NCBI GenBank assembly: GCA_015492515.1 | Contig: WGEZ01000138.1 | Span: 1 to 33,796 of the forward strand | Length of the DNA stretch: 33,796 nt | Source of the DNA: Nitrospirota bacterium | GTDB taxonomy: Bacteria > Nitrospirota > Thermodesulfovibrionia > Thermodesulfovibrionales > JdFR-85 | Direction: 5' to 3' | Shown: in pieces, positions 1,604 to 31,995 of the stretch | Position numbering within the stretch: position 1 is the first letter of the stretch | Layout of the letters: the number at the start of each line of letters is the position of its first letter | Made by a program: the position numbers and the translations under genes | Notes under the pieces: model-generated | Seen by the model: only the letters and a program-made list of their open reading frames with translations | The model's database searches: none | What the model was told of the DNA's origin: nothing

Positions 1604-2446
1604 ATGGGTTTGGTCATCAACACCAACATCATGTCCTTGAACGCCCAGAGGAACCTCACTGCGAGCACCAACAAGCTCGCCGTGTCGGTACAGAGGTTGT
1701 CCTCGGGCCTCAGGATCAACAGCGCCAAGGACGATGCCGCCGGGCTCTCCATCTCTGAGAAGCTGAACGCCCAGACCAGGAGCATAGCCGTCGCGATCAG
1801 GAACTCCCAGGACGGCATCAGTCTCGCCCAGGTTGCGGAAGGCGGCCTGCGGGAGATCGGTAACATCCTCGCCAGGATGAGGGAGCTGGCAGAAGAGGCG
1901 GCCAACGGCACCCTCGGCACGAGCGAGAGGTCGGCCCTTGACAACGAGTATGCACAGCTGAAGAGCGAGATCGACAGGATAGCCAACGTCACCGAGTTCA
2001 ACAACATCAAGCTCCTCGACGGATCTCAGAGCGCGAACGGTGTGACCCTCCAGGTCGGGTTCCAGAACACCACCAACGACAGGATAACCTTCTTCTCCGG
2101 CATCGATGCCACCAGCACGACCAAGCTCGGTCTGACAGGGCTGTTCGGTACCATCTCCATAGCCAGTAACGCCCAGTCCGCGCTCACCCAGATCGACAGC
2201 GCCATACAGACGGTGGCTACAAGGAGGGGCACGCTCGGTGCGATCCAGAACAGGCTCGACGCCACCATCGCCAACCTGAGGGTGGAGTCGGAGAATCTGT
2301 CCGCTGCAAACTCCCGCATCAGGGATGCAGACTTCGCCTACGAGACGGCGGTGTTCACGAGGAACCAGATACTGGTTCAGGCCGGCACGGCGATCCTGGC
2401 CCAGGCCAACGTGCTTCCTCAGAACGCCCTCGCGCTCCTGCAGTAG
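1604..2446 (+). CDS. fliC: Flagellin, filament structural protein
   Basis: A 280-aa flagellin. The N-terminus MGLVINTNIMSLNAQRNL with RLSSGLRINSAKDDAAGLSIS and the motif TEFNN are the conserved D0/D1 helices. The C-terminus, RDADFAYETAVFTRNQILVQAGTAILAQAN...LALLQ, is the matching C-terminal D0/D1 half. The central part (about residues 145-200) is short, so the protein lacks large D2/D3 domains, as in other short flagellins. The centre contains Ser/Thr-rich stretches (FQNTTND, DATSTTK) that would face outward and are plausible glycan acceptor sites. Secretion is by the flagellar type III apparatus, with FliS as chaperone. GGAGG at 1590-1594 precedes the ATG. It is the first gene of the filament operon, and the glycan island lies just downstream of that operon. 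Confidence 0.97.
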   Translation: MGLVINTNIMSLNAQRNLTASTNKLAVSVQRLSSGLRINSAKDDAAGLSISEKLNAQTRSIAVAIRNSQDGISLAQVAEGGLREIGNILARMRELAEEAANGTLGTSERSALDNEYAQLKSEIDRIANVTEFNNIKLLDGSQSANGVTLQVGFQNTTNDRITFFSGIDATSTTKLGLTGLFGTISIASNAQSALTQIDSAIQTVATRRGTLGAIQNRLDATIANLRVESENLSAANSRIRDADFAYETAVFTRNQILVQAGTAILAQANVLPQNALALLQ

Positions 2447-2493: not shown

Positions 2494-2512
2494 TGATCCA
2501 ATGGAGATGGCG

Positions 2513-2854
2513 ATGATCAATACAAAGGATACACTAATCACAGCGGCCCTTCAGCCCGGAGCGAAGAGCGAGAAGTCCGACGAGACCGAGGGCAGGAGGG
2601 TATCTGAAACAAGCCATCCCGACAGGGGCAGCACGGAAGGCCCGGAGAGGAAGGAGAGGCCCAAGGTACGGCTGAAGAACCACCTGAACAGGCAGATACG
2701 CCTTGAGGTCGACGATGAGCTCCACAGCATCATCTTCAAGCTGATCGACAAGGAAAGCGGCAGGGTCATCCGTCAGATACCACCGGAGGAGTTCATCGAA
2801 CTCGCCAAGAAGATGAGGCAGATGGACGGTCTCCTCATCGATAAGGAGGCTTAG
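2513..2854 (+). CDS. flaG: FlaG family flagellar protein
   Basis: A protein of about 113 aa. The N-terminal half is polar and probably disordered. The C-terminal half (LNRQIRLEVDDELHSIIFKLIDKESGRVIRQIPPEEFIELAKKM) is the conserved FlaG domain, with the typical signature GxVIRQIPPEE. FlaG proteins sit beside flagellin and fliD and influence filament length in several bacteria; their mechanism is not settled. The ORF track starts at 2501, but GGAG at 2503-2506 is correctly spaced only for the ATG at 2513, so I prefer that start. The gene ends two bases before fliD begins and so belongs to the filament operon. Confidence 0.88.
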   Translation: MINTKDTLITAALQPGAKSEKSDETEGRRVSETSHPDRGSTEGPERKERPKVRLKNHLNRQIRLEVDDELHSIIFKLIDKESGRVIRQIPPEEFIELAKKMRQMDGLLIDKEA

Positions 2855-2856
2855 CG

Positions 2857-4260
2857 GTGTCCGTGATCTCGGGCATAGGGCTCTCTTCAGGGATAAACTA
2901 CGATGAACTGATCTCCAGCCTGGTGGAGCTCCAGAGGCAGCCGATATACATCCTCCAGGACAGGCAGTCCACCTACAACGACAAGATCAGCGTCTACAAC
3001 CAGCTCTCTTCAAAGGTCTCGGCCCTCAAGAGCGCCGCCGACACCCTCAGGACCACCTCCGACTTCTACGCGAAGACCTCCTCTGTGAGTGATTCCACGG
3101 TGCTCGACGTCTCTGTGAGCAGCTCAGCGGACGTGGGGACCTATTCGATATCGGTAACGCAGCTCGCCCAGGCCCACAAGATCACCCACAACACGGGGCT
3201 GAGCGACAAGGACAGCACGACGGTCCTGGCCTCGGGAAACACGTTCCAGTTCACCATAAACGGCGAGACGAAGACCATAACCGCTGCATCCGACCTCACC
3301 CTCGAGGACCTCGCCTCCCAGATAAACAGCCAGACCTACACCGGTACCGTGGAGGTGGAGGCCACCGTGGTGAACACAGGGACCTCGAGCTCTCCGTCCT
3401 ACAAGCTGATACTGACGAGCAACACCACAGGCGCCGACTACGGCATCACCATTGATACGGACCAGTCCATACTCGACCTCACCGACACCCAGGCCTCGGA
3501 CTCTGACTCGGACGGACAGTACCGGGTGGAGCTGAAGGCGGCGCAGGACGCGGTGTTCACCGTCGATACCATGCAGGTGACGAGGAGCTCCAACACGGTG
3601 AGCGACGTCCTGACGGGTGTCACCTTCACCCTGAAGGAGGACGGCTCTTCGGCCACCTTCACCGTATCGAACGATACGGAGACCATAAAGGGAAACATAG
3701 AGGCCTTTGTGAATGCGTACAACGACGTGGTCACCCACGTGACGTCCAACTCCGTCTATGATACGGAGACGAACACGGGAGGTCCCCTCGTCGGGGAGTC
3801 CACATCAAGGAACGTCGTAAACAACCTCAGGAACATCATCATAAGCAGGGTCACCTCCAATCCCCAGGACATGCGGGCCCTCTCCCAGCTCGGCATAGAG
3901 ACCGACTACGAGACGGGCCAGCTCACCATCGACACCTCGACCCTGGAGGACAAGCTCTCCACCGACCTGGACGACGTGGCCACCCTCTTCACCGACAGCT
4001 CCAGCGGTATCGCCGTCAGGATCTATGACACCGCAGACGACATAACGGACTCCATCGACGGCTCCATCGCCATCAGGATAGACGGCCTCGAGACACTGGT
4101 GGACGACGTCAGCGACGACATCAGGGAGATGGAGGAGAGGCTCGAGAGGATGGAGGAGGACCTGAGAAGGCAGTTCGCGGCCCTGGAGATGCTCCTCGGC
4201 GGACTCTCCTCACAGGGAGCCTTCATCAGCAGCATGATGAACAGCTGGGCAAATTCTTGA
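2857..4260 (+). CDS. fliD: Flagellar filament cap protein FliD
   Basis: A 467-aa FliD (HAP2), the pentameric cap under which flagellin monomers fold at the filament tip. The N-terminus GIGLSSGINYDELISSLVELQRQPI, with a following helix rich in Gln, is the FliD N-terminal domain. The C-terminus (DDVSDDIREMEERLERMEEDLRRQFAALEMLLGGLSSQGAFISSMM) is the coiled-coil leg that contacts the filament. The middle is rich in Ser and Thr. Length is normal for the family. It starts with GTG, preceded by AAGGAGG at 2843-2849, a 7-nt spacing that fixes the start. It is translated next to flaG and followed by fliS. Confidence 0.96.
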   Translation: MSVISGIGLSSGINYDELISSLVELQRQPIYILQDRQSTYNDKISVYNQLSSKVSALKSAADTLRTTSDFYAKTSSVSDSTVLDVSVSSSADVGTYSISVTQLAQAHKITHNTGLSDKDSTTVLASGNTFQFTINGETKTITAASDLTLEDLASQINSQTYTGTVEVEATVVNTGTSSSPSYKLILTSNTTGADYGITIDTDQSILDLTDTQASDSDSDGQYRVELKAAQDAVFTVDTMQVTRSSNTVSDVLTGVTFTLKEDGSSATFTVSNDTETIKGNIEAFVNAYNDVVTHVTSNSVYDTETNTGGPLVGESTSRNVVNNLRNIIISRVTSNPQDMRALSQLGIETDYETGQLTIDTSTLEDKLSTDLDDVATLFTDSSSGIAVRIYDTADDITDSIDGSIAIRIDGLETLVDDVSDDIREMEERLERMEEDLRRQFAALEMLLGGLSSQGAFISSMMNSWANS

Positions 4261-4278
4261 TAAGATCAGGAGGTAAGG

Positions 4279-4698
4279 ATGCAACAGGCAGCAGAGTACA
4301 GAAAGACGGAGGTGAACACCTCGGACAGGGTGAGGATCGTCTCACTGCTCTACGACGGAGCGATCAATTTCGTGAGGATGGCGAAGAACAAGCTTGACGA
4401 GGGAGACCTGGCAGCCAAGGGGCTCTACACCGGGAAGGCGACGGCGATCGTGGGAGAGCTGTCGAGCACGCTGGACGTGAAGGCCGGGGGTGAGATCGGT
4501 CAGAACCTCAGACGGCTCTACGACTTCGTCATGGACAGGCTCTTCTACGCCAACATGAGGAACGACAGGACCGCCTTCGAGGACGCCGAGAGGGTGCTCG
4601 ACGTGCTGCGCGGTGCGTGGAAGGAGATGGCGGAGAGCAACAGTGAGGCCGGAAGCAGAAGGGAGCTCAACGGCACCGGCATGGAGCTGAGGGTATGA
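4279..4698 (+). CDS. fliS: Flagellin export chaperone FliS
   Basis: A 139-aa FliS. Diagnostic features are an N-terminal AAEYRKTEVNTSDRVRIVSLLYDGAINFVRMAK segment and LYDFVMDRLFYANMRND, which fit the four-helix FliS fold that wraps the disordered C-terminus of flagellin in the cytoplasm and prevents early polymerisation. The last 15-20 residues are polar and variable. AGGAGG lies ahead of the ATG. The stop overlaps the next gene by ATGA, which implies translational coupling. Confidence 0.95.
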   Translation: MQQAAEYRKTEVNTSDRVRIVSLLYDGAINFVRMAKNKLDEGDLAAKGLYTGKATAIVGELSSTLDVKAGGEIGQNLRRLYDFVMDRLFYANMRNDRTAFEDAERVLDVLRGAWKEMAESNSEAGSRRELNGTGMELRV

Positions 4699-5027
4699 GC
4701 AGATCGATCGTCGGGCTCTGCAGCGAACTGCTCCGCCTGGCCGAGGGTCAGAGGGACGCCCTCCTGGCGGGAGACCTCCTCAAGGCCGTGGAGCTTCAAC
4801 AGAGACGCCGGGAGCTTACAGAGGAGATGGCCCGCGCCGGACCGGACGGTGAGGCCTGCCGCGAGGCGGTGGGGCTGCTGGAGCGGGTCCTTAAGGTCGA
4901 CGGCCTCCTGAAGGACCTCGTCCGCGAAGGCCTCAACTCGACCATGGAGAGGATGCGCTCCATCGGAAAGCTCAGGGCCTACCACCTCCATGAACGGAAG
5001 AGGGCCGGCATAAATATAAACGTATAG
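4695..5027 (+). CDS. fliT: FliT-like flagellar chaperone
   Basis: A 110-aa, almost wholly alpha-helical and charged protein, translationally coupled to fliS through an ATGA overlap. The pattern (LCSELLRLAEGQRDALLAGDLLKAVELQQRRRELTEEM, then a long second helix) fits the small FliT/FlgN chaperone fold. FliT binds FliD before export. Sequence conservation in this family is poor, so the assignment rests mostly on size, helix pattern and the order fliD-fliS-fliT. It could be a generic FlgN-like chaperone instead. It is the last gene of the filament operon. Confidence 0.7.
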   Translation: MSRSIVGLCSELLRLAEGQRDALLAGDLLKAVELQQRRRELTEEMARAGPDGEACREAVGLLERVLKVDGLLKDLVREGLNSTMERMRSIGKLRAYHLHERKRAGININV

Positions 5028-5385: not shown

Positions 5386-7593
5386 TTGCACGACATGGGC
5401 AGGGATTCGGAAACTACGGTAGAGGGGACCGCGGGTCGAACAAAGGCGGATTCCCCGGAAGGGTCGACGGTGCTACCTTCGGTTGAGGATTTAGACAGGA
5501 GGAACTCTGCCGGAGACGCAGCCTACCTGCCTTTTGGCAGGCCCAACTTCTCTGACGAGGAGATAGAGGCTGTGGCGAGGGTGATGCGTACCGGCTGGAT
5601 CGGGATGGGGCCGGAGACCATCGCCTTCGAGAAGGAACTATCCCGTTTCCTCGGTGCACCCCACGTCGTCACCGTCAGTTCCTGTACCTGGGCCCTCTTC
5701 CTCTCCCTCCTCGTCCACGGGATCGGGCCGGATGACGAGGTGATCTGTCCGAGCCTCACCTGGTTCAGCACGGCGAATGCAGCCCTCTACCTGGGGGCGA
5801 GGCCGGTCTTCTGCGACATCGACCCCCACACACTGAGCGTGACGCCTGAGACGATAAAGGAGAAGCTGACCGACCGTACCAGGGCGGTCGTGGTCGTCCA
5901 CATGGGCGGCTATGCGGTGGATGTCGATGAGATCCGGGGCATCCTGCCCGATGGCGTGGCGATAGTGGAGGATGCCGCCCATGCCCTCGGTTCGAGGTTC
6001 GCCGACGGAAGACCCGTCGGCTCATCGGGGAACCTCACCTGCTTCAGCTTCTATGCAAACAAGAACCTCTCGACCGGAGAAGGCGGGGCGATCGCCCTCC
6101 ATGACGGGGAGCTGGCCGGGAGGCTCTGCTCGCTGAGGCAGCATGGATTGGCTGCAGATGCATGGAGGCGTTACAGCAACCCCCGGTGCGCCCTTGTGCC
6201 GGGGCTTAAAGAACTGGGTTACAAGATGAACTTCACCGATCTGCAGGCCTGTATAGGACGTGTCCAGCTGAGGCGTCAGGGCGAGTTTGCCCGGATCAGG
6301 AAGGAGATAGCCCGGCTCTATCACGACGCACTGGATGGCAGGGGTGTAACGTTTCAGAAGGGCTGCCTCGACGACGGTCACTCCAGGCACCTCTTCACGG
6401 TACTGCTGCCCCTGGAGGGGCTCGTGAAGTCGCGGGACGAGTTCGTTCTGGAGCTGAGGAGAAGGAAGATAGGGGCTGCGATCCACTACTCCCCGCTGCA
6501 CCGGATGCCCCACTATGAGAGGCTCTGTTCAACGAGCCTGCCGAACACGGAGTTTGTCAGCCAGAGGATCATCACCTTACCGATCAGCGCGAGCATGGGG
6601 ATCGAGGACGCCCGCCGGGTGCTGGAGGAGTTCACGGAGATCTTAGAGGCCTCGCGATCCGTTACCGGCCGGGCGGGGACCGGCACGATCTCGGCTCCAG
6701 GGTATGTGAAGAGTGACGGCAGCCCGGGGAAGGTCACCAAACCGGTCTTTATCGTAGGCTGCGGCAGGTCGGGAACGACCTTCCTGTTCAACATCATGAA
6801 GAAGCATCCCCGCCTGAGGGCCACGACGGGCTACCCCGACGGTGAGGATCATACAGGCTGGATCAAGCACGGAGGATGCATAATAAGCGGCCTCGGTCAC
6901 GCCCATATCGAGAAGGGCCATACGGGGTATCATTACTGCCTCTACATGGATGAGAAGGACGTAACCCCCCGGGTCGTGGAGTCGATGCACAGGTATTATC
7001 ACGAGGATGTGCTGGGTGGTGACGGCTCAAAGAGGGTGCTGAACAAGTGCCCCCATCTGTCGAACAAACTGAGATATGTGAGGGCGATCTTCCCCGATGC
7101 GAAGTTTATCCATATCATCAGGGACTGTCTGCCCGTGGTCTCCAGCTGGATCAAGATCATGGAGACCCAGCCTCATCTGGTCCTGTACCTGCCTGACGAC
7201 GAGTATCCCTGCCACTGGGTCCTCCCGGCCCCTCCAGATGGAGAGAGGGAGACCGTCTTACGCAGGCATGGCAGGATATTTCCAGGCGGCGGGGTGGAAC
7301 GGCTGGTGGATTACTGGTCGATCGTGAACAGAAACATCCCCCTCCAGCTTCTGGACACCCCCGGGCAGCTGCTGACGGTCAGGTACGAGGACCTCTGCGC
7401 CGATACCGCCGAGACACTGAGACGGATCTGCCGCTTCTGCGAGATCCCTTCATTCGATGAAATCCCTGAGGAGATTTCCATAGACGTCACACTGAACAAC
7501 AACGAAAAGTACAAGACCCATCTGACGGAAGAACAGATCACGGCGTTCTTGAAGCGTTCGGAAGTTACCCGTTCAATATTCGGTTATGTCTGA
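5386..7593 (+). CDS. DegT-family aminotransferase fused to a sulfotransferase
   Basis: A 735-aa two-enzyme fusion. Residues about 45-425 are a DegT/DnrJ/EryC1/StrS PLP-dependent sugar aminotransferase: GWIGMGPE, VEDAAHALGS with the pyridine-binding D196, and the Schiff-base lysine K226 in SFYANKNLSTGEGG. Such enzymes aminate keto-sugars on nucleotide carriers. Residues about 450-735 are a PAPS-dependent sulfotransferase: the 5'-phosphosulfate loop FIVGCGRSGTT (455-465) and the 3'-phosphate motif IHIIRD...VVSSW (575-588). Both active sites look intact. The start is TTG at 5386 with GAGG seven bases upstream; ATG at 5395 is the alternative. The first 45 residues are low-complexity and not part of the fold. 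The stop overlaps the next gene. It is the first gene after the sigma-54 promoter. Confidence 0.9.
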   Translation: MHDMGRDSETTVEGTAGRTKADSPEGSTVLPSVEDLDRRNSAGDAAYLPFGRPNFSDEEIEAVARVMRTGWIGMGPETIAFEKELSRFLGAPHVVTVSSCTWALFLSLLVHGIGPDDEVICPSLTWFSTANAALYLGARPVFCDIDPHTLSVTPETIKEKLTDRTRAVVVVHMGGYAVDVDEIRGILPDGVAIVEDAAHALGSRFADGRPVGSSGNLTCFSFYANKNLSTGEGGAIALHDGELAGRLCSLRQHGLAADAWRRYSNPRCALVPGLKELGYKMNFTDLQACIGRVQLRRQGEFARIRKEIARLYHDALDGRGVTFQKGCLDDGHSRHLFTVLLPLEGLVKSRDEFVLELRRRKIGAAIHYSPLHRMPHYERLCSTSLPNTEFVSQRIITLPISASMGIEDARRVLEEFTEILEASRSVTGRAGTGTISAPGYVKSDGSPGKVTKPVFIVGCGRSGTTFLFNIMKKHPRLRATTGYPDGEDHTGWIKHGGCIISGLGHAHIEKGHTGYHYCLYMDEKDVTPRVVESMHRYYHEDVLGGDGSKRVLNKCPHLSNKLRYVRAIFPDAKFIHIIRDCLPVVSSWIKIMETQPHLVLYLPDDEYPCHWVLPAPPDGERETVLRRHGRIFPGGGVERLVDYWSIVNRNIPLQLLDTPGQLLTVRYEDLCADTAETLRRICRFCEIPSFDEIPEEISIDVTLNNNEKYKTHLTEEQITAFLKRSEVTRSIFGYV

Positions 7594-8632
7594 CACGGCA
7601 TCCCCATGGAGAAAAAAGAATAACATGGAGAACAGGGCAGCGCGACGGGAAGGCAAGGAGATCGTTGAATACGGTTTTTACGGACGGCTGAAGGCCGGGT
7701 TCCCTTCACAGATAATCGTGGATATCACAGAGGTCTGCAACCTGAGCTGTATCCACTGTCTCCACCGGGAGTTCAGGAGGTCCGGGCATTACTCCGCCGC
7801 GCACCTGGACCCTGAACTGAACGCCAGGATGGTGGATGAGGTGAGAAGGCACGGCCGGGGCCTCACCCGGTATATCCGCTACACCGGCGACGGTGAACCC
7901 CTGTTGCATCCCGGCGGCTATGAGATGATTGAGCATGCAGTCCGCCATTCCGGCGTCTTCGTCACCCTCACCACCAACGGGACCGTACTGGACGAAAGGA
8001 GGACGGAGAGACTGCTGGACTCGGGCATCCACATGATCGATATAAGCATCGATGCCTACAGTGCCGAGACCTATGCCAGGATCCGCATCGGCGGAGACCT
8101 GAGCGTGACGCGTGCAAACGTCCTGAGGTTGATAGAGATGGTCAGGAGCGGCGGATACAAGACCAGGGTGGTCGTCAGTTATGTGGAGCAGCCCCTGAAT
8201 CTTCACGAGACGGCGGACTTCGAGGGGTTCTGGAAGGACCACGGTGCCGATTACGTCGTCATCAGGAGGCTCCATTCCTGCTCCGGAGCCAAGGGGGATC
8301 TGGCCGAGCAGATGAGGAGGGACAACGGCAGGAGGAGGCCCTGTCTCTATCCCTGGGAGAGGATCGTCCTGAAACCCAAGGGGGTGCTCACCTTCTGTCC
8401 CGCAAACTGGTTTGAAGAGACCTTTGTATCGGAGTACCGCGGCACAACCATAAGGGAGACGTGGCAGGGGGAGTATTATCAGGACCTCCGGAGGGCCCAC
8501 CTCTGCAACGACTTCTCAACCCAGCCCTTCTGCGGGCAGTGCCCGGACTGGAGCGCGACGCGCTGGCCCTCTGAGGGCCGGAGCTATGCCGATATGATAG
8601 AGGAATTCATCGAAGATGAGCACAGCCGTTGA
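7586..8632 (+). CDS. Radical SAM/SPASM-like protein
   Basis: A 348-aa radical SAM enzyme. CNLSCIHC (C51, C55, C58) is the CX3CX2C motif that ligates the SAM-cleaving 4Fe-4S cluster, followed by the barrel elements YTGDGEPLLHPG, TLTTNG and IDISIDAYSAETY. The C-terminal third has spaced cysteines (RPCLYPW, LTFCPANW, HLCND, FCGQCPDW) that resemble a SPASM/twitch auxiliary cluster domain. In glycan clusters such proteins act on sugars or peptides; the substrate here is unknown. The first eight bases overlap the preceding gene; a later ATG at 7625 is a possible alternative start. It overlaps the following methyltransferase by 17 bases. Confidence 0.85.
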   Translation: MSDTASPWRKKNNMENRAARREGKEIVEYGFYGRLKAGFPSQIIVDITEVCNLSCIHCLHREFRRSGHYSAAHLDPELNARMVDEVRRHGRGLTRYIRYTGDGEPLLHPGGYEMIEHAVRHSGVFVTLTTNGTVLDERRTERLLDSGIHMIDISIDAYSAETYARIRIGGDLSVTRANVLRLIEMVRSGGYKTRVVVSYVEQPLNLHETADFEGFWKDHGADYVVIRRLHSCSGAKGDLAEQMRRDNGRRRPCLYPWERIVLKPKGVLTFCPANWFEETFVSEYRGTTIRETWQGEYYQDLRRAHLCNDFSTQPFCGQCPDWSATRWPSEGRSYADMIEEFIEDEHSR

Positions 8633-9353
8633 CAAAAGGACCGTTCCCCTCATCGACCGGATAGAAGCCGTGGTGGCCGATATACCGGGATGGTCGCCCG
8701 TGGACCAGCTCTACACGCTCTTCTGTCTCGTGTATCTCGACCCCGAGGCCGAGGGCGATATCATAGAGATCGGTTCGTGGTGTGGAAGGTCCTCCGTCGT
8801 GCTCGGGATGGCCGCCCGCATGACCGGTGCCGCCAGGGTCTACTGTATAGACCTCTTTCCCGAGAAGGACGACTGGAGAGAGAACGACGACGGCACCTAT
8901 TCCTTCGAGGTCGTCCTGGACGGCCGGAGATATGCCGGACACAACGTACAGACGGTCTGGAGGGAGCCCTTTCAGAGGGATATCGCCCCTGTCTACGAGA
9001 GATACAACAGCGTATTCGACCGTTTCATCAAGTCCGTCGAGGACAACGACCTGCAGGATATAGTCAGGCCCTGCAGGGGCACGTCGGAGATGATCAGGGA
9101 CTTCGTGCCGGAAGGCTTCAGATGCAGGCTTGCGTTCATCGACGGCGAACACAGCTACGAGGCCGTGTGCCGGGACATAACAAACGTGGAGCCCTTCCTG
9201 GTGGAAGGGGGCTGGCTCTGTTTTGACGACGCCTTCACCACCTACAGCGGGGTAAACAGGGCGATAGAAGACCTCGTACTCGACAACCCCGGTTACGAGC
9301 TCTGCCGACAGATGACGAGGAAGCTCTTTGTTGCAAGAAGAAGGAGGGGGTGA
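8616..9353 (+). CDS. Class I SAM-dependent methyltransferase
   Basis: A 245-aa protein of the Methyltransf_24 / TylF-like type. IIEIGSWCGRSS (49-60) is the SAM-binding glycine loop, VYCIDLFPEK the acidic residue after strand 2, and LAFIDGEHSYEAVCRDI the region that in related sugar O-methyltransferases and cephalosporin-hydroxylase-like enzymes holds catalytic and metal-binding residues. It is likely to O-methylate a sugar, but the acceptor cannot be read from the sequence. The gene overlaps the radical SAM gene by 17 bases, so the two are probably coupled. Confidence 0.82.
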   Translation: MSTAVDKRTVPLIDRIEAVVADIPGWSPVDQLYTLFCLVYLDPEAEGDIIEIGSWCGRSSVVLGMAARMTGAARVYCIDLFPEKDDWRENDDGTYSFEVVLDGRRYAGHNVQTVWREPFQRDIAPVYERYNSVFDRFIKSVEDNDLQDIVRPCRGTSEMIRDFVPEGFRCRLAFIDGEHSYEAVCRDITNVEPFLVEGGWLCFDDAFTTYSGVNRAIEDLVLDNPGYELCRQMTRKLFVARRRRG

Positions 9354-9357
9354 AGAG

Positions 9358-10068
9358 GTGAAGGTGGGAATCATCCAATCGAGCTACATCCCCTGGAGGG
9401 GATACTTCGACTTCATCGACAGCGTGGATCTGTTCATCCTCTTTGATGACGTAGCGTATTCCAAGGGCAGCTGGCGGAATCGTAACAGGATCAAGACGGC
9501 CTCCGGCCTGAAGTGGCTGACCGTACCTGTAAGAACCAGGACGGGCGTCCCGATAGACCAGGTGCTCATATGTGACACATCATATAGAAGATCATGGCAG
9601 AGGAGACATCGCAACCTCTTGAGAAGCGCCCTTGAACCGGCTCCTTATTTCAAGGATGCCCTGGAGATCTGGGAAGAGGGGGTCTCCGCCGGTCATACCA
9701 GGCTGAGCCGGCTGAACCTCGGCCTGATCAAACTGATCTGCGCGTACCTCGGCATCAAGACGCCGATCGCGCTTTCCCGGGACTATGAAGCAGCTGGCTC
9801 CGGGACGGAGAGAGTGATCAACCTCCTCAGAAAGGTCGGGGCCACCGTGTATCTCTGCGGACCATCGGCAAGGGCATACCTTGACGAGACCCTCTTCGAG
9901 AAGCACGGCATAGGGCTGCAGTACAAGAGATATGACTACAGGCCCTATCCCCAGCTCTGGGGAGGGTTTGAGGGGGCCGTGACCGTGCTCGACCTGATAG
10001 CGAACTGCGGACCCGGGTCGAGGCGCTATCTGAAGAGCCAGAGCCCGGATGAGGTGGTGGTAGGATGA
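9358..10068 (+). CDS. WbqC-family protein
   Basis: A 236-aa WbqC-like protein (Pfam WbqC). VGIIQSSYIPWRGYFDFIDSVDLFILFDDV near the N-terminus, followed by SWRNRNRIKTASGLKWLTVPV, is the family signature. The family is found in O-antigen and other glycan clusters; its reaction is not established. The ORF track starts at a TTG (9328), but AAGGAGG (9341-9347) serves the GTG at 9358, just after the stop of the preceding gene, and conservation begins there. The end overlaps the next gene by ATGA. Confidence 0.87.
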   Translation: MKVGIIQSSYIPWRGYFDFIDSVDLFILFDDVAYSKGSWRNRNRIKTASGLKWLTVPVRTRTGVPIDQVLICDTSYRRSWQRRHRNLLRSALEPAPYFKDALEIWEEGVSAGHTRLSRLNLGLIKLICAYLGIKTPIALSRDYEAAGSGTERVINLLRKVGATVYLCGPSARAYLDETLFEKHGIGLQYKRYDYRPYPQLWGGFEGAVTVLDLIANCGPGSRRYLKSQSPDEVVVG

Positions 10069-11345
10069 GGGTCGTCTTCTTCGGGAACACGAACAACTAC
10101 CCCTACCTGCTGGCCAGGGCGGTACGGAACCTCGGCCATGAGGTGGTCCTGCTGGTGAACAGGGCTGAGAGGCTCCACAGACCGGAATCGATGGAGCCCG
10201 GATATCTCGACGGGTATCCGGCATGGATCAGGGACGTCTCCGGGATAGACGAGGGCTGCTATGTTGAGCCGGACGGGAGGATAGAGCCGGTGGTCAGAGA
10301 ACTGGCCGGTGCCGACGGCCTCGTCCTGAACCATATCGGACCGTCGCTGCTCGACTTTGTGAAGAGACCCGCCATCGCGATGCTGACCGGGTCTGACCTC
10401 GATTATTACGCCAACTTCTCCACCCTCGGCGTCAGGCAGTCGGGCTGGGGGGAGGATTTCCTCTTCTCAGCGCAGGGGAGGCGGGAGTGCCTCCTCTGGG
10501 CTGACTTCATCCAGCGCCAGAGGCTGGGCATACGGATGTCCAGGGCGGTGAGCTACTTCCCCAGAGGGGTCGTCCCCGAGGGGGACAGGCTGCTGGACGG
10601 AATAGGGGTGAGCGACGGCAGGAGGTTCTTCATCTATATGGCGAATCCGTTTATTCCCCTTGACGGTGAGCCCCTTTCCGGCGGAGCGGTGCGTATATTC
10701 TGCGGCACCCGCCTCACCTGGAGGAAACCCGTGAGGGAGGGCGCGAGCACCCTGGATTACAAGGGCTCGGACGTCATGATCAGGGGGCTGGGCCTCTTCC
10801 TCAGGAGGCGGTCCATACCCCTTGAGGTCCGCATCGTGAGGAAGGGGCTGGATGTAGAAGAGACAGAGGAGCTCGCCAGGGCTGAAGGGATAGCCCACTC
10901 CGTTGAATGGCTTGAGGAGATGAGCCTGAAGGACTTCTACAGGGAGCTCCGGCGCGCTGACATCGTCTTCGAGCAGCTCGGCGACAGTTGTGTGGGGATG
11001 GCGGGCCTGGATGCCATGGCGATGGGCAAACCCGTGATCGCCAACGGCCGCCCAGAGGTCCTCGGCAGGGTGCTGCCCCGGCCGCTGCCGGTCTGCCAGG
11101 CCTCCACACCTGAGGAGGTCTCGGAGGCACTGGAGAGGCTCACCCTCGATGAGGGATACCGAAGAAGGGTCGGGGAAGAGGCCCGGGAGTACGCGAGGCG
11201 GTTTCTGTCCCCCGAGTATTACGCCGAAAGATGCATCGAGATCCTATCGAGACCGGATCGAGGCGATGATCCCTTAAGCGCAGACCGGTTTCCTGGAAGA
11301 GACCGGGCATCACGTGAAGGAGGAGACCGCTATGTACGAGGATGA
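10065..11345 (+). CDS. GT-B glycosyltransferase (GT4-like)
   Basis: A 426-aa GT-B fold protein. The N-terminus MRVVFFGNTNNYPYLLARAVRNLGHEV is a typical GT4 nucleotide-fold start. The C-terminal half has KGSDVMIRGLGLFLRR and DIVFEQLGDSCVGMAGLDAMAMGKPVIANGRPE, the donor-binding region in which the usual EPFG-type acidic motif is replaced by GMAGLDAM. The last 25 residues are low-complexity. It probably transfers a sugar from a nucleotide donor in the cytoplasm. It is coupled to wbqC by ATGA and overlaps the next small gene by 14 bases. Confidence 0.8.
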   Translation: MRVVFFGNTNNYPYLLARAVRNLGHEVVLLVNRAERLHRPESMEPGYLDGYPAWIRDVSGIDEGCYVEPDGRIEPVVRELAGADGLVLNHIGPSLLDFVKRPAIAMLTGSDLDYYANFSTLGVRQSGWGEDFLFSAQGRRECLLWADFIQRQRLGIRMSRAVSYFPRGVVPEGDRLLDGIGVSDGRRFFIYMANPFIPLDGEPLSGGAVRIFCGTRLTWRKPVREGASTLDYKGSDVMIRGLGLFLRRRSIPLEVRIVRKGLDVEETEELARAEGIAHSVEWLEEMSLKDFYRELRRADIVFEQLGDSCVGMAGLDAMAMGKPVIANGRPEVLGRVLPRPLPVCQASTPEEVSEALERLTLDEGYRRRVGEEAREYARRFLSPEYYAERCIEILSRPDRGDDPLSADRFPGRDRASREGGDRYVRG

Positions 11346-11466
11346 TCTCGACAGCCTTCTTGCAACCCTGTACAGGGTGATCCCCTTGACAGGGGAGGAC
11401 GACGGTGAGGAGACGACGTGGTCAACGTTTGAGGACTGGCGGTGTGATCTGGACAGCGAGTATTAG
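11332..11466 (+). CDS. Small acidic protein, 44 aa, unknown
   Basis: Too short for the ORF track. ATG at 11332 is preceded by AAGGAGGA (11317-11324) at a 7-nt spacing, among the best ribosome binding sites in the window. The product begins MYEDDLDSLLATLYRVIPL, is strongly acidic, and ends DWRCDLDSEY. It overlaps the glycosyltransferase end by 14 bases and ends 14 bases before the carbamoyltransferase. I do not recognise the family. It could be a small partner of the carbamoyltransferase or a translational coupler. Confidence 0.6.
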   Translation: MYEDDLDSLLATLYRVIPLTGEDDGEETTWSTFEDWRCDLDSEY

Positions 11467-11480
11467 AGGGAGGTGTCTTC

Positions 11481-13169
11481 ATGAACGTCCTTGGCATATC
11501 CTGTTATTTCCACGATGCCGCGGCGACGCTGGTGAGTGACGGCAGGGTCGTGGCTGCAGCGGAAGAAGAGCGTTTCACCAGGAAGAAGCATGACAACAGG
11601 TTCCCTGAACTCGCCATCGGCTACTGCCTCAGGGAGGCGGGCTTGAAGGCCTCTGACATCGATCTCGTCTGTTTCTACGAAAAACCACTCCTCAAACTGG
11701 AGAGGGTGCTGCTCCAGGGGAGGCGATGGCAGGCGATGCCCCGGGCACTCGTGAAACGGCAACTCTCACAGATGATGCATGAACACCTCTTCCCCGAGGA
11801 AGTGCTGAGGGAGAAGACAGGCTACGAAGGGAGGGTGGTCTACACAGAGCATCATCTCGCCCATGCCGCCTCTGCCTACTACATATCGGGCTTCGACGAC
11901 GCGGCGGTGCTGACCGTTGACGGTGTCGGAGAGAGGGCCTCCACCGCGATCTTCACCGCCGCCGGCAACAGCCTGCAGAAGATGCAGGAGATACGGTATC
12001 CCCACTCCCTGGGACTGCTGTACAGCACCGTAACGGCCTTTCTCGGTTTCAAGGTGAACAACGACGAATACAAGGTGATGGGGCTTGCTTCCTACGGTCG
12101 GCCGAGATACGTGGACAAGATCCATCAGCTGATAACGTTCAACGGAGACGGCAGCTTCCGTCTCGACCTCGACTACTTCAGTTTCATGTATGACAACAGA
12201 CGGATGTACAGCGGGAAGTTCATCGAGCTCTTCGGCCCGCCGCGGGTTCCGGAAGGGCCGATAACCCAGTACCATATGGACCTGGCCGCCTCGCTGCAGC
12301 ACCTCCTGGAGGAGGCGATGGTGAGGCTGGGGAACCTGTTGTATGCGAAGACGGGAAGCGACAACGTCTGTCTCGCCGGCGGCGTGGCCCTCAACTGTGT
12401 GGCGAACTCCAGGTTCATGAAGCACACCCCTTTCAAGAGGGTCTCCGTTCAGCCTGCGGCGGGCGATGCAGGCGGCTCGATGGGGGCCGCCATGTACGCC
12501 TACTACACCCTCTGCGGCGACCGCCCCAGGCCCGAGGAACACTCGACTCTCCTCGGACCCTGGTATTCCAACGGCGAGATCAGGGGCTTCCTTGATTCAG
12601 TCGGCGCCACCTACACCGAGTACGATGAAGAGACGATCTGCAGAAAGACGGCGGAGCTGATCCACGGGAACAAGATCGTCGGATGGTTCCAGGGAAGGAT
12701 GGAGTTCGGCCCCAGGGCGCTGGGCAGCAGGAGCATCCTTGCAAACCCCTGCAACCCGGAAATGAAGGACATTCTCAACGCACGGGTGAAGTTCAGGGAG
12801 GATTTCCGCCCCTTCGCCCCGGCGGTTCTTGCAGAGAAGGCGCGGGAGTATTTCGATCTCGACTTCGACAGCCCCTACATGCTCTTCATAGCGGACGTCA
12901 AACCCGGGATGGCGAAGCTGATCCCCTCGGTCACGCACACCGACAACACGGCCCGCGTACAGACCGTCTCCAGAAGGGAAAACCCGATCTTTTATCGACT
13001 CATCGAGGAGTTCGGCAGGATATCAGGGGTCCCCGTGGTGATCAACACGTCCTTCAACATCCGTGGAGAGCCCATCGTATGCACCTGTGAGGATGCATAC
13101 AACTGCTTCATGAAGACGGACATAGATTTCCTGGTCATGGGAAACTATCTGATCGAGAAGGAGGTCTGA
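11481..13169 (+). CDS. NodU/CmcH-family carbamoyltransferase
   Basis: A 562-aa O-carbamoyltransferase. The N-terminal ASKHA-like domain starts MNVLGISCYFHDAAATLV with AAAEEERFTRKKHD and includes EHHLAHAASAYY (metal-binding His) and LTVDGVGE. The C-terminal domain contains CLAGGVALNCVANS, GWFQGRMEFGPRALGSRSILANP and FREDFRPFAPAV. Family members such as NodU, CmcH and TobZ transfer a carbamoyl group from carbamoyl phosphate, via carbamoyl-AMP, to a sugar or antibiotic hydroxyl. Length matches the family. GAGGGAGG precedes the ATG. It is flanked on both sides by tiny genes with strong ribosome binding sites. Confidence 0.95.
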   Translation: MNVLGISCYFHDAAATLVSDGRVVAAAEEERFTRKKHDNRFPELAIGYCLREAGLKASDIDLVCFYEKPLLKLERVLLQGRRWQAMPRALVKRQLSQMMHEHLFPEEVLREKTGYEGRVVYTEHHLAHAASAYYISGFDDAAVLTVDGVGERASTAIFTAAGNSLQKMQEIRYPHSLGLLYSTVTAFLGFKVNNDEYKVMGLASYGRPRYVDKIHQLITFNGDGSFRLDLDYFSFMYDNRRMYSGKFIELFGPPRVPEGPITQYHMDLAASLQHLLEEAMVRLGNLLYAKTGSDNVCLAGGVALNCVANSRFMKHTPFKRVSVQPAAGDAGGSMGAAMYAYYTLCGDRPRPEEHSTLLGPWYSNGEIRGFLDSVGATYTEYDEETICRKTAELIHGNKIVGWFQGRMEFGPRALGSRSILANPCNPEMKDILNARVKFREDFRPFAPAVLAEKAREYFDLDFDSPYMLFIADVKPGMAKLIPSVTHTDNTARVQTVSRRENPIFYRLIEEFGRISGVPVVINTSFNIRGEPIVCTCEDAYNCFMKTDIDFLVMGNYLIEKEV

Positions 13170-13172
13170 TCC

Positions 13173-13352
13173 ATGAGGAAGAGCTATTTCGACCCCGACG
13201 TGCTGGAGAGGAAGATGGCCCGTCTCAGGGAGGAGGACAGGTGCGAGCCCTGGCTTATCAGCGCACTGGAGACCCTGAAGAGGAACGTGGACCGGATACC
13301 CGTTGAAGAGGACGAGAACAGATACGTGGTCGAGTTCATATACCCTCACTGA
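13173..13352 (+). CDS. Small charged protein, 59 aa, unknown
   Basis: One residue below the track cutoff. ATG at 13173 has AAGGAGG (13158-13164) eight bases upstream and starts four bases after the carbamoyltransferase stop. The product (MRKSYFDPDVLERKMARLRE... ending YVVEFIYPH) is soluble, with a predicted amphipathic helix and a short C-terminal strand. No family recognised. The next gene starts 9 bases later. Confidence 0.65.
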   Translation: MRKSYFDPDVLERKMARLREEDRCEPWLISALETLKRNVDRIPVEEDENRYVVEFIYPH

Positions 13353-13361
13353 AGCGTCACC

Positions 13362-15605
13362 ATGAGGTTTAGAGAAGGAAGGAGCTACGGGATCGTGGAG
13401 AGGAAGCCCGAAGGGGTGTTCAGGGTCCTCTGCCTGGGGGATTCCATGGTTTATGGTCAGGGGGTCGACAACGGCGAGACGCTGCCCTCGATGCTCGAGC
13501 GGTTTCTGAACCGTGCCGTCTGGAACCGCTGGGTGGAGGTGATAAACGAGGGCACGTGCGGTTTCTCCGTCTATGATGAATGGCATCAGTTCATCCAGAG
13601 AGGACATCGTCTTCGACCAGACCTGATCCTGTTGATACTGTCCAACAACGACGCCGAGCTCTTCGGGGTCCAGCAGGGGTATGTGGAGCACGTGATGGAA
13701 TGCTGGAGCAGAGAGGGTGTGCATCTGCCCTACTTCAGGTTGCTCCTCAAGGACGTCGCAAGGGAGCTGAAAGCCCTGAGGATCCCCGTACTCGTCTGCT
13801 TCTACGAGATATATGAAGGCGAACTGAGGGAGATATGCACCGCATCGATCAAGGAGGCCTGTGAATGGTCGGGACTGGACTTCCTGGACCTCTCGGTCGA
13901 CTTCCTCGGTGCCTCTTCGGCCCAGATGAACAGGGGCATGAGGGTCGACGATCTGGACGGGCACCCCTCTGCCCAGGCGCACCGGACCGCAGCACTCAGG
14001 CTGACCAGGCATCTGATACGCAAGGGTTACATCGGGGCTGAAAACGACCGCCTGACGCCCGAGGGGACGCTCTACGGCGGCCTCCTGAAGACCTCGGAGA
14101 GGATGTTGAGGGCTGGATATCGACCTCATGAGGTCCTGTACCGTCTGAGTGAGACGCTCCTGAGGAAGAGGGAGAGCAACCTCCGCCTGAGGCTCTCGGA
14201 GCCGGAACGCATGAGCGATGACGACTTCAGGGAGCTCCTCGCCGCGGTGAGGTCCCTCTACGAGAGGAGCCTGATCCTGCTGTCCTGGCAGGCGTATTCA
14301 ACAGTGCTCAGGTTTGAGAGGCAGCGATTCCTCACCGCCTGCCGCAACGCCGACAGGCTGATCCAATCACTCCTGAAGAAACTCTTCATCATCGAAAAGA
14401 ACCTGACTGGAGACCCGGAGCTCCGTTATCAGCCGGTTGCGGACGAATCGGTGGAGAAGAGGGAGCGTATCGATCCAGCGGCCTTCGAGTACGAGGTTGC
14501 CCGCTGGTTGACCCTTCTGGCCAGGGTGAACGAGACACTGTCGGTTTCACGGCCCCCTGCCTCTGAGGGGCTTGAGGGTCTCGCCGCGAGGATCGACCAC
14601 GGCATGGAAACGGAGAGGCACCACATAGGCGAGTACCTGGCCGAAGGCGAGAGGATCCTGAAGGCCTGTCAGCACGTCCTTTCACTCCATGATCACCTCT
14701 CTGGGCCGGGCAACGGAAACGGCGGCGAGGCCGGGGCCGCCGATCCTGTCCTGTCCGAGCTCTCAAGCCTTGCGGCGGAGGCTGGGCTTCTCCTCGAGCT
14801 GCTCCGGCTGGAGGAGGCCCAGGAGCCCCCTCCCCTTCCGGAACAGCCGGTCTGCCGTGTCGATGTCCTCCTGACGTCTGTTGCGGAAGAACCCTTCAAC
14901 CTCGTCGTCCGGCTGGACTCCCTGGTGCCCGACTATCCTGCCGTCGAGGATCATCGGATGGTACAGAACGACGGCGGCCTCCGGCGCTATCACTTCGAGT
15001 TCCCCCTCACCTGCCTGGGAAGATTCAGGCTCTCCTTCCCGGGTAACGGCAGGTCCCTGAGCCCCGACGACGGTATCCGCGTCGAGAGGATGGAGTTGAG
15101 CTCAGGCCGGAGGGCGATGACGATCGACGGAAGGGACCTCGTCCACGGCAGCGACGGCTCCCTTGAAACACCCCTCATCTGGGACCTCAACGGATCGGTC
15201 GAGACACCCGACGCCGTAGCCGACGGGATGAGGGATGAACTCTTTGCGGAGCTTCCGTACACGGAGTACAGGATACCGGAGGAGGAGATGGAAAAGGACG
15301 ACGGTTACTGTTACACCTTCAGCTTCAGGACGAGGGCGAGTTCCTTATTCACCGGCTCGAGGGTTTATCGCGGCATGAGACTGTTTGAAGACGGTCGGCC
15401 GTTGAGATTCGATCGGACACCCCGTTACGAGATCGTACGGCTCGGTGGAGGACGCTACTCCCTCACACCCGGGAAGGTCCTCTTCTCGTCTTCCGACAAC
15501 ACCGATCCCCGTACGAACGGAAGGGTCTACACCCTCCTTGTTCCCACGTTCGTATATCTCCTGGAGAACCTCTCCGATGGACAGATCGAGAGGTTCAGAC
15601 TGTGA
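13362..15605 (+). CDS. SGNH-hydrolase-like protein with long C-terminal extension
   Basis: A 747-aa protein. Residues about 18-220 are an SGNH/GDSL domain: GDSMVYGQGV with S28, the block II Gly in NEGTCGFS, SNND (94-97), and DGHPSAQAH (199-207) with the catalytic His. These enzymes remove or transfer acetyl or acyl groups on glycans. Residues about 220-480 are mostly helical, probably coiled coil. Residues about 500-747 look beta-rich (LLTSVAEEPFNLVVRLDSL and following), perhaps carbohydrate binding; I do not recognise this part. No signal peptide or membrane segment is visible, so it should be cytoplasmic. There is no good Shine-Dalgarno; the ATG at 13362 is used because the fold begins right after it. 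Confidence 0.75.
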   Translation: MRFREGRSYGIVERKPEGVFRVLCLGDSMVYGQGVDNGETLPSMLERFLNRAVWNRWVEVINEGTCGFSVYDEWHQFIQRGHRLRPDLILLILSNNDAELFGVQQGYVEHVMECWSREGVHLPYFRLLLKDVARELKALRIPVLVCFYEIYEGELREICTASIKEACEWSGLDFLDLSVDFLGASSAQMNRGMRVDDLDGHPSAQAHRTAALRLTRHLIRKGYIGAENDRLTPEGTLYGGLLKTSERMLRAGYRPHEVLYRLSETLLRKRESNLRLRLSEPERMSDDDFRELLAAVRSLYERSLILLSWQAYSTVLRFERQRFLTACRNADRLIQSLLKKLFIIEKNLTGDPELRYQPVADESVEKRERIDPAAFEYEVARWLTLLARVNETLSVSRPPASEGLEGLAARIDHGMETERHHIGEYLAEGERILKACQHVLSLHDHLSGPGNGNGGEAGAADPVLSELSSLAAEAGLLLELLRLEEAQEPPPLPEQPVCRVDVLLTSVAEEPFNLVVRLDSLVPDYPAVEDHRMVQNDGGLRRYHFEFPLTCLGRFRLSFPGNGRSLSPDDGIRVERMELSSGRRAMTIDGRDLVHGSDGSLETPLIWDLNGSVETPDAVADGMRDELFAELPYTEYRIPEEEMEKDDGYCYTFSFRTRASSLFTGSRVYRGMRLFEDGRPLRFDRTPRYEIVRLGGGRYSLTPGKVLFSSSDNTDPRTNGRVYTLLVPTFVYLLENLSDGQIERFRL

Positions 15606-15660
15606 TCATGGTGACGGCGGTGGTTGAGGCGGTGCAGTTGCTGTACGAGGGGAGAAGATC

Positions 15661-17487
15661 ATGTGCGGGATAACGGGTTTCGTCTCCTTCTCCGGCGGGA
15701 GGGTCGATGAAGGGATGCTCAAGGGCATGCGAGACAGCATCGCCTACAGAGGTCCCGACGACGCCGGCATCTACATATCGGGGGACCGGTCCGTCGGACT
15801 CGCCCACCGCAGGCTGGCGATCATCGACCTGTCACCCGCAGGTCATCAGCCCATGTCCAATGAGGACGGCAGCATCTGGATCACCTACAACGGAGAGGTC
15901 TTCAACTACCGGGAGCTGATGAGGCGGTTGAAGCGGTCCGGACACACCTTCAGATCCAACTGCGACACGGAGGTGATCATCCACCTCTATGAGGAGTACG
16001 GAACGGACTGTCTCGCTTATCTGCGGGGACAGTTCGCCTTCGTGATATGGGATTCCGTTAAAAGAAGGCTCTTCGGTGCGAGGGACCACCTCGGGATAAA
16101 GCCCCTTTATTACCGCTGGGACGGCTCGACCCTGGCCTTCGCTTCGGAGCTGAAGGCACTCCTGCCCGCAGCGGGAAAGGGCGAGATAGACTACGGCTCC
16201 GTCGTGGATTACCTGGTCCTTCAGTACATCCCGGCACCGAAGACGGTATACAGGGATATCAGGAAACTGGAGGCGGGCACATACTTCTGCGTCGAAGACG
16301 GGACGTTCAAGGTGAGAAGGTTCTGGCGACCGGAGCCGCTCCGGGGCCATCAACTTCCGGAGGAGATACTCGTGGAGAGACTGGATGAATTGCTGCACCA
16401 GTCCGTCAAGGGGCAGCTCGTGGCCGACGTCCCCCTCGGGGTCTTCCTCTCCGGAGGCGTGGACTCCAGCACCATAACCTATTACATGTCGAAGATCAAC
16501 AACGGACGGGTCCAGGCATTCTCGGTGGGGTTCGAGGAGCAGGAGTACAACGAGATCGAATACGCCGCCGGTACGGCAGGGCATCTCCAGAACGTGGACC
16601 ACCACAAGCTCCTCCTGAAGGCGGACAGGGCCTTCGAGATCATCCAGAGCCTCATAGAGTCCATCGACGAACCCTTCGCTGACCAGGCGATCGTGCCTAC
16701 GTATATGATGTCCAGGTATGCAAGGGAATCCGTCACGGTCTGCCTCTCCGGCGAAGGGAGTGACGAGATCTTCGGAGGGTATGACAGGTACAGGCTGGCG
16801 ATAGAGCGGGTCAAGAAGCTGGGCGAGCTTACGAGGTTCTATCCCGACCTGAGCCCCTACCTGCGGGACAGCCTCTCCGTCGAGTATCTGGACTATCTCT
16901 CCAGCCTCTGCTCCTTCAGGCCTGATGAGGTCTCTTCGGTGTTTACGGAGACGAAGTACATCTACAAGAGTTTCGCAACCTCGGCCTTCAGGGAGGGTTT
17001 TGCGGCCCTGGAGGCGATGGACGAGCTTGAACGCCTCCAGCGGTTCGACCTCAAGACCTATCTCGCCGACAACCTCCTCTTCAAGGTGGACAGGGCGAGC
17101 ATGCTCGCCTCCCTTGAGGTCAGGGTCCCCTTTCTCGAGCCCGAGCTCGTCAACTTCGGCTTGGGGCTGCCCTTCGAGATGAGATACAGGAGCCATCTGC
17201 AGAAATACATCCTGAAGAAGCTGATGGTGGACAGGGTCCCGAACAAGGTCGTATACAGGAGCAAGATGGGCTTCTCCGTGCCGATCTTCGTCTGGTTCCG
17301 GAAGGGGTTCTACGACTATCTGCGCGAGACCCTCCTGAGCAGGAGGGCGAGGGAGCGTGGCTGCTACAGGATCGCAGAGATCGAGAAGCTGCTCGATCCC
17401 GACATTTCCATGAGGGACAGGCGGAACTCCCTCAAACTCTGGTGTCTGCTGATCCTGGAGGAGTGGTTCAGGAGGTATCATGACTGA
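15661..17487 (+). CDS. asnB: Glutamine-hydrolysing asparagine synthase family amidotransferase
   Basis: A 608-aa AsnB-type enzyme. C2 of MCGITGF is the N-terminal nucleophile of the class II glutaminase, supported by RGPDDAG, AHRRLAIIDLS and NGEVFNYREL. The synthetase half has the PP-loop SGGVDSS (264-270) and CLSGEGSDEIFGGYDRY. It activates a carboxylate with ATP and amidates it with ammonia from glutamine. In surface-glycan clusters paralogues amidate uronic-acid carboxyls, so a sugar amide is as likely a product as asparagine. Length is normal. It overlaps the next gene by eight bases. Confidence 0.92.
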   Translation: MCGITGFVSFSGGRVDEGMLKGMRDSIAYRGPDDAGIYISGDRSVGLAHRRLAIIDLSPAGHQPMSNEDGSIWITYNGEVFNYRELMRRLKRSGHTFRSNCDTEVIIHLYEEYGTDCLAYLRGQFAFVIWDSVKRRLFGARDHLGIKPLYYRWDGSTLAFASELKALLPAAGKGEIDYGSVVDYLVLQYIPAPKTVYRDIRKLEAGTYFCVEDGTFKVRRFWRPEPLRGHQLPEEILVERLDELLHQSVKGQLVADVPLGVFLSGGVDSSTITYYMSKINNGRVQAFSVGFEEQEYNEIEYAAGTAGHLQNVDHHKLLLKADRAFEIIQSLIESIDEPFADQAIVPTYMMSRYARESVTVCLSGEGSDEIFGGYDRYRLAIERVKKLGELTRFYPDLSPYLRDSLSVEYLDYLSSLCSFRPDEVSSVFTETKYIYKSFATSAFREGFAALEAMDELERLQRFDLKTYLADNLLFKVDRASMLASLEVRVPFLEPELVNFGLGLPFEMRYRSHLQKYILKKLMVDRVPNKVVYRSKMGFSVPIFVWFRKGFYDYLRETLLSRRARERGCYRIAEIEKLLDPDISMRDRRNSLKLWCLLILEEWFRRYHD

Positions 17488-22149: not shown

Positions 22150-22151
22150 CC

Positions 22152-23849: not shown

Positions 23850-23894
23850 GAAAAAAGAGGTATTCACGGCCTCCACGGAAAGGAGAAGGTGCAT

Positions 23895-25796: not shown

Positions 25797-25806
25797 CGGA
25801 GAGACG

Positions 25807-25830
25807 GGGCGGATCACAGCCGCTCCGCCC
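25807..25830 (+). terminator. Stem-loop after the chemoreceptor gene
   Basis: GGGCGGA (25807-25813) pairs with TCCGCCC (25824-25830) around a 10-nt loop, eleven bases after the receptor stop. No U-tract follows. It may be a GC-type terminator or a 3'-end stabiliser. Confidence 0.4.
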
Positions 25831-25878
25831 TCGATACAGGGCTGGATGTGACGGGGGTATCCTCACCTCCCGCCTGAA

Positions 25879-25914
25879 CAGCGGCGAAGGCGCCGCTGAG
25901 AGGTTATCACTCAG
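25879..25914 (+). terminator. Strong hairpin with an overlapping alternative stem
   Basis: CAGCGGCG-AAGG-CGCCGCTG (25879-25898) is a perfect 8-bp stem with a four-base loop. Its right arm overlaps CTGAG (25896-25900), which can instead pair with CTCAG (25910-25914), so the two stems exclude one another. No U-tract is present. It lies about 40 bases before the next gene and could be a terminator of the receptor transcript or an attenuator for the downstream genes. Confidence 0.4.
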
Positions 25915-25939
25915 AGCAGACTTCCGGGGAAGACGCGTG

Positions 25940-30207: not shown

Positions 30208-30211
30208 CTCC

Positions 30212-31993: not shown

Positions 31994-31995
31994 CA

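Follow-up and report, generated by a model that had tools for sequence, protein, structure and literature searches.

An open reading frame joining a DegT-type aminotransferase to a sulfotransferase beside the flagellin gene of a Nitrospirota genome

Introduction

The closest described systems come from flagellin glycosylation and carbohydrate sulfation. VioA, the dTDP-viosamine aminotransferase, belongs to the flagellin viosamine island of Pseudomonas syringae, for which seven genes are listed with no sulfotransferase among them (PMC3927599). NodH of the Sulfotransfer_3 family, a stand-alone enzyme acting on lipochitooligosaccharide, O-sulfates GlcNAc (PMC11625862). In Halobacterium salinarum, the sulfotransferases Agl30 and Agl31 sulfate glycan sugars of the archaellum and S-layer proteins (PMC11980604). 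In the literature searched, coverage of which was partial, no report was found of a DegT-sulfotransferase fusion or of a sulfated bacterial flagellin glycan.

Here, we analyzed a stretch of 33,796 nucleotides (the window), which is one contig (C138) of a 2.19-Mb genome in 148 contigs, with an estimated completeness of 100%, from the order of Thermodesulfovibrio. The window encodes a DegT-type aminotransferase in an island predicted to build a flagellin glycan, as is the case for VioA, but VioA is a single-domain protein of 372 amino acids and the substrate of the window enzyme is a prediction (PMC3927599). The aminotransferase is joined to a sulfotransferase of the same Pfam family as NodH, in which an arginine likewise replaces the lysine of the PAPS loop; unlike NodH, the window sulfotransferase is fused (PMC11625862). 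Agl30 and Agl31 differ from it in being stand-alone enzymes of an archaeal N-glycan with uronic acid acceptors (PMC11980604). Our preferred reading, to which we give about an even chance, is that the open reading frame (ORF) consists of two consecutive tailoring enzymes of the predicted flagellin-glycan island that have become fused, one behind the other, in this lineage.

The fused reading frame

The nearest relative with the locus is Thermodesulfovibrio sp. isolate S141 (JALUAR010000215.1, a metagenome assembly; G003 below). The ORF was divided into the following parts.

5386..5469, plus strand: N-terminal stretch of the ORF, probably untranslated, with the likely start at GTG 5470
5470..6648, plus strand: DegT/DnrJ/EryC1 aminotransferase domain (Pfam, ArnB structures, AF2; 70% identical to G003)
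6649..6738, plus strand: linker, putatively a former intergenic spacer, about residues 422-446 (a stop and a 55-nt spacer in G003)
6739..7593, plus strand: Sulfotransfer_3 domain and stop (Pfam, motifs, fold search; 72% identical to G003)

The ORF is a single open frame of 735 codons on the plus strand, running from TTG 5386 to the stop at 7593, and its two domains, both complete, are separated by a linker of about 25 to 30 residues. This confirmed that the aminotransferase-sulfotransferase join reported in the first-pass annotation is present in the sequence as read, and the domain matches and motifs of both halves were far beyond chance level. Translation probably begins at GTG 5470 rather than at TTG 5386, because the segment 5' of the GTG has no counterpart in G003 and because the G003 aminotransferase begins about 20 residues ahead of the conserved block. 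In addition, AAGGG lies seven bases 5' of this GTG.

The Pfam DegT_DnrJ_EryC1 profile matched residues 56-416 with an E value of 1.1e-104 and 350.9 bits against a curated cut-off of 19.8, covering profile positions 4-359 of 360. The PLP-binding Lys226, which the first-pass annotation had named, is the lysine of ANKN (SFYANKN; nt 6061-6063) and aligned with the lysine of the SFHAIKN motif in solved ArnB structures, as did the EDAAHA (from residue 195), PSLTW, and AIHYSPLH regions with their ArnB counterparts. The PLP lysine and the Asp/His motif of the DegT/DnrJ/EryC1/StrS family were thus both found, and the AF2 model of the domain had pLDDT values of mostly 90 or more. Judged from its sequence, the domain is of normal length with intact active-site motifs. 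ArnB, the UDP-4-amino-4-deoxy-L-arabinose aminotransferase, provided the nearest solved structures (E 1e-74), and its active-site motifs are conserved in the window enzyme; however, ArnB has another genomic context and no fusion partner, and the window enzyme missed the subfamily cut-offs of both ArnB (311.7 of 631 bits) and PseC (275.6 of 423.5 bits). The other DegT gene examined in the same genome (L048, G000:C131, 3121-6345) adjoins LpxB and a UDP-GlcNAc 3-dehydrogenase-like gene, which suggests a lipid A context and a lipid A with a diamino sugar.

For the second half, Sulfotransfer_3 matched from residue 453 (E 4.2e-28; 99.5 bits against a curated cut-off of 27) and Sulfotransfer_1 matched residues 453-725 (E 9.2e-14). 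The two nucleotide motifs claimed in the first-pass annotation were both recovered, the 5' PAPS motif FIVGCGRSGTT from residue 455 and the 3' motif IIRDCLPVVSS from residue 577. When six sulfotransferases were aligned, Arg461 (in RSGTT), Glu487, Lys554, Arg579, and Ser587 were invariant, so that the 5' loop and the 3' phosphate motif with its Arg and Ser, which mark a PAPS sulfotransferase, are present. The domain modeled alone by AF2 gave a mean pLDDT of 71 and a pTM of 0.78, with poorly modeled substrate loops. A Foldseek search with this model returned a tyrosylprotein sulfotransferase (TPST; E 2e-9, TM 0.57) and many other sulfotransferases, with 3-OST further down; the predicted fold is that of a sulfotransferase.

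The linker had AF2 pLDDT values below 50, and all 11 of the other aligned aminotransferases end where it begins. In a shuffling control, the shuffled linker was still open about half of the time, indicating that its openness alone proves nothing; linker openness and codon-phase GC were both set aside as uninformative on whether the fusion is genuine. In the AF2 model of the whole fusion, the aminotransferase was confident and the sulfotransferase half was poor owing to the thin alignment there, leaving the arrangement of the domains unreadable.

The flagellin island

The ORF belongs to an island directly 3' of the flagellin, FlaG, FliD, FliS, and FliT genes, with the following features.

35-961 and 980-1597: ORFs without a Pfam match, just upstream of flagellin
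1604..2446, plus strand: flagellin (FliC; Flagellin_N/C), 86% identical to the G003 flagellin in the same place
2501..5027, plus strand: FlaG, FliD, FliS, and FliT-like genes (Pfam; FliT below the curated cut-off)
7586..10068, plus strand: radical SAM/SPASM, Methyltransf_24, and WbqC-like genes (Pfam; collinear G003 orthologues 67-71% identical)
10065..33720, plus strand: rest of the island, with many glycosyltransferases, a carbamoyltransferase, GDSL, an asparagine-synthase-like amidotransferase, and methyltransferases (Pfam, orthologues)
23889-25796, plus strand: MCP gene, with HAMP and MCP signaling domains followed by a C-terminal phosphonate-binding (PhnD-type) domain
25937..27463, plus strand: second sulfotransferase (Sulfotransfer_3, E 3e-14), with no match in the G003 island

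The islands of the window and G003 are largely collinear from flagellin up to the GT9 gene, with proteins 42-86% identical. The carbamoyltransferase, the MCP, and the second sulfotransferase are additional in the window, which in turn has no counterpart of the G003 gene at 18297-19337. Linkage to flagellin and the presence of glycosyltransferases, conserved between two genomes, are the marks of a flagellin glycosylation island.

WbqC, GT9 heptosyltransferase-like, and carbamoyltransferase genes are found in polysaccharide loci too; papers sought on WbqC yielded nothing of use. As the island holds all three, it could instead build another surface polysaccharide, with the flagellin genes merely adjacent. 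We consider this unlikely, since flagellin and the island kept their order in G003 despite saturated synonymous divergence. Moreover, two of the island glycosyltransferases gave weak Maf N-terminal matches, one above the cut-off for Maf_flag10_N (26.9 versus 23.5) and one just below, and further relatives also carry sulfotransferases beside flagellin. Such genes were located no more than about 4 kb from flagellin in at least the window's genome (G000), G002, G003, G013, and G023, and about 14 kb from it in G104 among the matches listed, although the majority of sulfotransferase genes in the order lie away from flagellin. A flagellin glycan is the reading kept below.

The domain order of the MCP gene product is odd for a chemoreceptor-like protein, and the G003 island has no counterpart. 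The first approximately 190 of the 508 residues of the second sulfotransferase had no match in Pfam. The end of its ORF runs 133 nt past the start called for the next one (27331), and this latter start was probably placed too early. In G003, a 726-amino-acid protein (L027:16120-18300) combines a relative of the GT4 protein at 10065-11345 of the window with the C-terminal approximately 112 residues of the window GDSL protein (13362-15605), which by sequence comparison is a reshuffling of domains between the two islands.

Comparison with the split genes of G003

In G003, the same two enzymes are encoded by separate neighboring genes, in different frames and 55 nt apart. The aminotransferase gene is terminated by a stop of its own at 12731; ATG 12787 (or TTG 12769) is the start of the sulfotransferase. 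The order of the pair and its flagellin island are the same as in the window; only the fusion is missing. The identities between the window and G003 were 70% for the aminotransferase and 72% for the sulfotransferase, whereas fourfold sites were 26-27% identical in both halves, i.e., saturated. Proteins conserved to this extent over saturated sites indicate that both halves were kept by selection, and each half of the fusion is under strong purifying selection.

The split pair raises the alternative that the fusion is an artefact of assembly or base calling and that the genome truly has a pair of genes, overlapping or adjacent, as G003 does. A TGA at 6714 (frame 2) lies right at the junction together with an out-of-frame ATG at 6704, so that the gain or loss of a single base would turn one gene into two, and the fusion is known from one metagenome-assembled genome. 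On the other hand, wherever another window gene has a G003 counterpart, it is intact, and in most cases full length, indicating that indel errors are infrequent on this contig, and the junction has no long homopolymer. Most island genes have a good Shine-Dalgarno sequence, but the possible internal starts at 6704 and 6706 do not; this deprives the out-of-frame ATG of a usable site and counts against internal initiation that would yield two proteins. An artefact is thus doubtful, although it is a possibility to be taken seriously, and the genuine join remains our preferred reading.

Next, other copies were sought. The search of the named genome collection with the sulfotransferase returned only G003. 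Neither a third close copy of the sulfotransferase nor the same fusion in a second lineage was found in 177 genomes from the order or in 396 from the phylum, the next sulfotransferase being about 32% identical. No relatives of the sulfotransferase were found in viral contigs or phages, and the two found on plasmids (25-27%) did not adjoin an aminotransferase. Because the G003 pair is split and no third close copy was found, the fusion is interpreted as a lineage-specific joining of co-operonic genes, known from one metagenome-assembled genome, and therefore not as an established enzyme class. This narrows the earlier description of "one polypeptide", which does not hold as a conserved design when the only close relative is split. 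By its sequence, the ORF appears to be a new combination, in one genome, of domains from two known families. Genes fused here and split there are a classical sign of a functional link, not of new chemistry; such a natural fusion argues that the aminotransferase and the sulfotransferase share one pathway, and comparing the split pair with the fused one offers a simple way to learn whether tethering matters.

Target of the sulfotransferase

TPSTs were the nearest solved structures by both sequence and fold, at 16-18% identity, and the PAPS loop, Glu, and Lys positions of TPST1/2 align with those of the window domain. The sulfotransferase domain could accordingly act on protein tyrosine, for example of flagellin, rather than on a sugar, and tyrosine sulfation is known in bacteria from the RaxST system (PMC6637879). 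However, the identity is low, and the match partly reflects library bias because few characterized bacterial relatives have structures. TPST1/2 are secreted eukaryotic protein-modifying enzymes from another context, whereas the partner domain and every neighboring gene in the window are carbohydrate enzymes. Tyrosine as the target is therefore quite improbable.

With a sugar as the acceptor, the attached sulfotransferase might N-sulfate the amine directly after it is made, releasing an NDP-sulfamino sugar. The physical tethering of amine-making and sulfate-transferring enzymes is consistent with this, as are Glu487 and Lys554, invariant in the six sequences, since N- and 3-O-sulfotransferases as well as TPSTs use a glutamate as their base (PMC11625862). 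But the same type of glutamate also serves O-sulfation, and because it is common to N-, 3-O-, and tyrosine enzymes, these residues cannot tell N- from O-sulfation (PMC11625862). Furthermore, the best matches are O-sulfotransferases (TPST, with 3-OST lower), NodH of the same Pfam family O-sulfates its GlcNAc (PMC11625862), and the partners are separate in G003, so tethering is inessential. A bifunctional N-sulfating enzyme is accordingly very unlikely, and it is scarcely probable that such an enzyme makes and N-sulfates the amino sugar at the nucleotide-sugar stage for an N-sulfated flagellar glycan. The N-sulfation proposed in the first-pass annotation must be regarded as a guess. In contrast, its broader proposal of a single sugar or glycan pathway comprising both amination and sulfation was supported by the adjacent genes in the collinear flagellin island of G003 and by genes for PAPS synthesis.

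Precursor supply and proposed pathway

The window's genome encodes an APS kinase (at a contig end) and an ATP sulfurylase, indicating that PAPS can be made. It also carries a strong match to RmlB (dTDP-glucose 4,6-dehydratase) and an RmlD; with RmlB present, dTDP-4-keto-6-deoxyglucose is available. Searching the genome with PF02719 for a PseB/CapD-type UDP-GlcNAc 4,6-dehydratase brought up general SDR enzymes only, all weakly matched and in several cases coinciding with RmlB/GalE-like genes. No such dehydratase stood out, which leaves the UDP-keto sugars named in the first-pass annotation a tentative choice of substrate.

By analogy with VioA, the aminotransferase would convert an NDP-4-keto sugar to an NDP-4-amino sugar, and dTDP-4-keto-6-deoxyglucose from RmlB may be the best-supplied candidate substrate. 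The sulfotransferase would then sulfate either this NDP-4-amino sugar or the growing cytoplasmic glycan, more probably at a hydroxyl than at the new amine, and the island glycosyltransferases would attach the sulfated sugar to flagellin. The join could have arisen once a short spacer no longer contained a stop and was in frame, tethering two enzymes already in one pathway; new chemistry would be unnecessary. The likely outcome is a flagellum with a sulfated amino-sugar coat rather than a new kind of enzyme. This reading is bounded by a sequence that does not fix the substrates of either domain and by a fusion seen in one genome, where an assembly error is possible. If confirmed, it would point to bacterial flagella that bear sulfated amino sugars, of which the literature searched held no bacterial example; the sulfated archaella and S-layer of Halobacterium would be the archaeal parallel.

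Other long sulfotransferase frames

Other long sulfotransferase frames of the order and phylum (G093, G052, G083, G160, G194, and G002) lack an aminotransferase partner. In four such frames from the order, the additional Pfam domain is TPR or LPG_synthase_TM, if there is one at all. One frame of G052 (L075, G052:C65, 1877-4216, minus strand) joins the sulfotransferase domain to the LPG_synthase_TM membrane domain. In related genomes, Sulfotransfer_3 matches also lie within very long open frames of 1550-3338 amino acids (G103:C40, G055:C78, G113:C10, and G163:C22). Near FliD and flagellin in G002, a 737-amino-acid frame (L041, G002:C259, 591-2804, minus strand) has two tandem sulfotransferase domains, followed at its C terminus by what read as TPR-like repeats.
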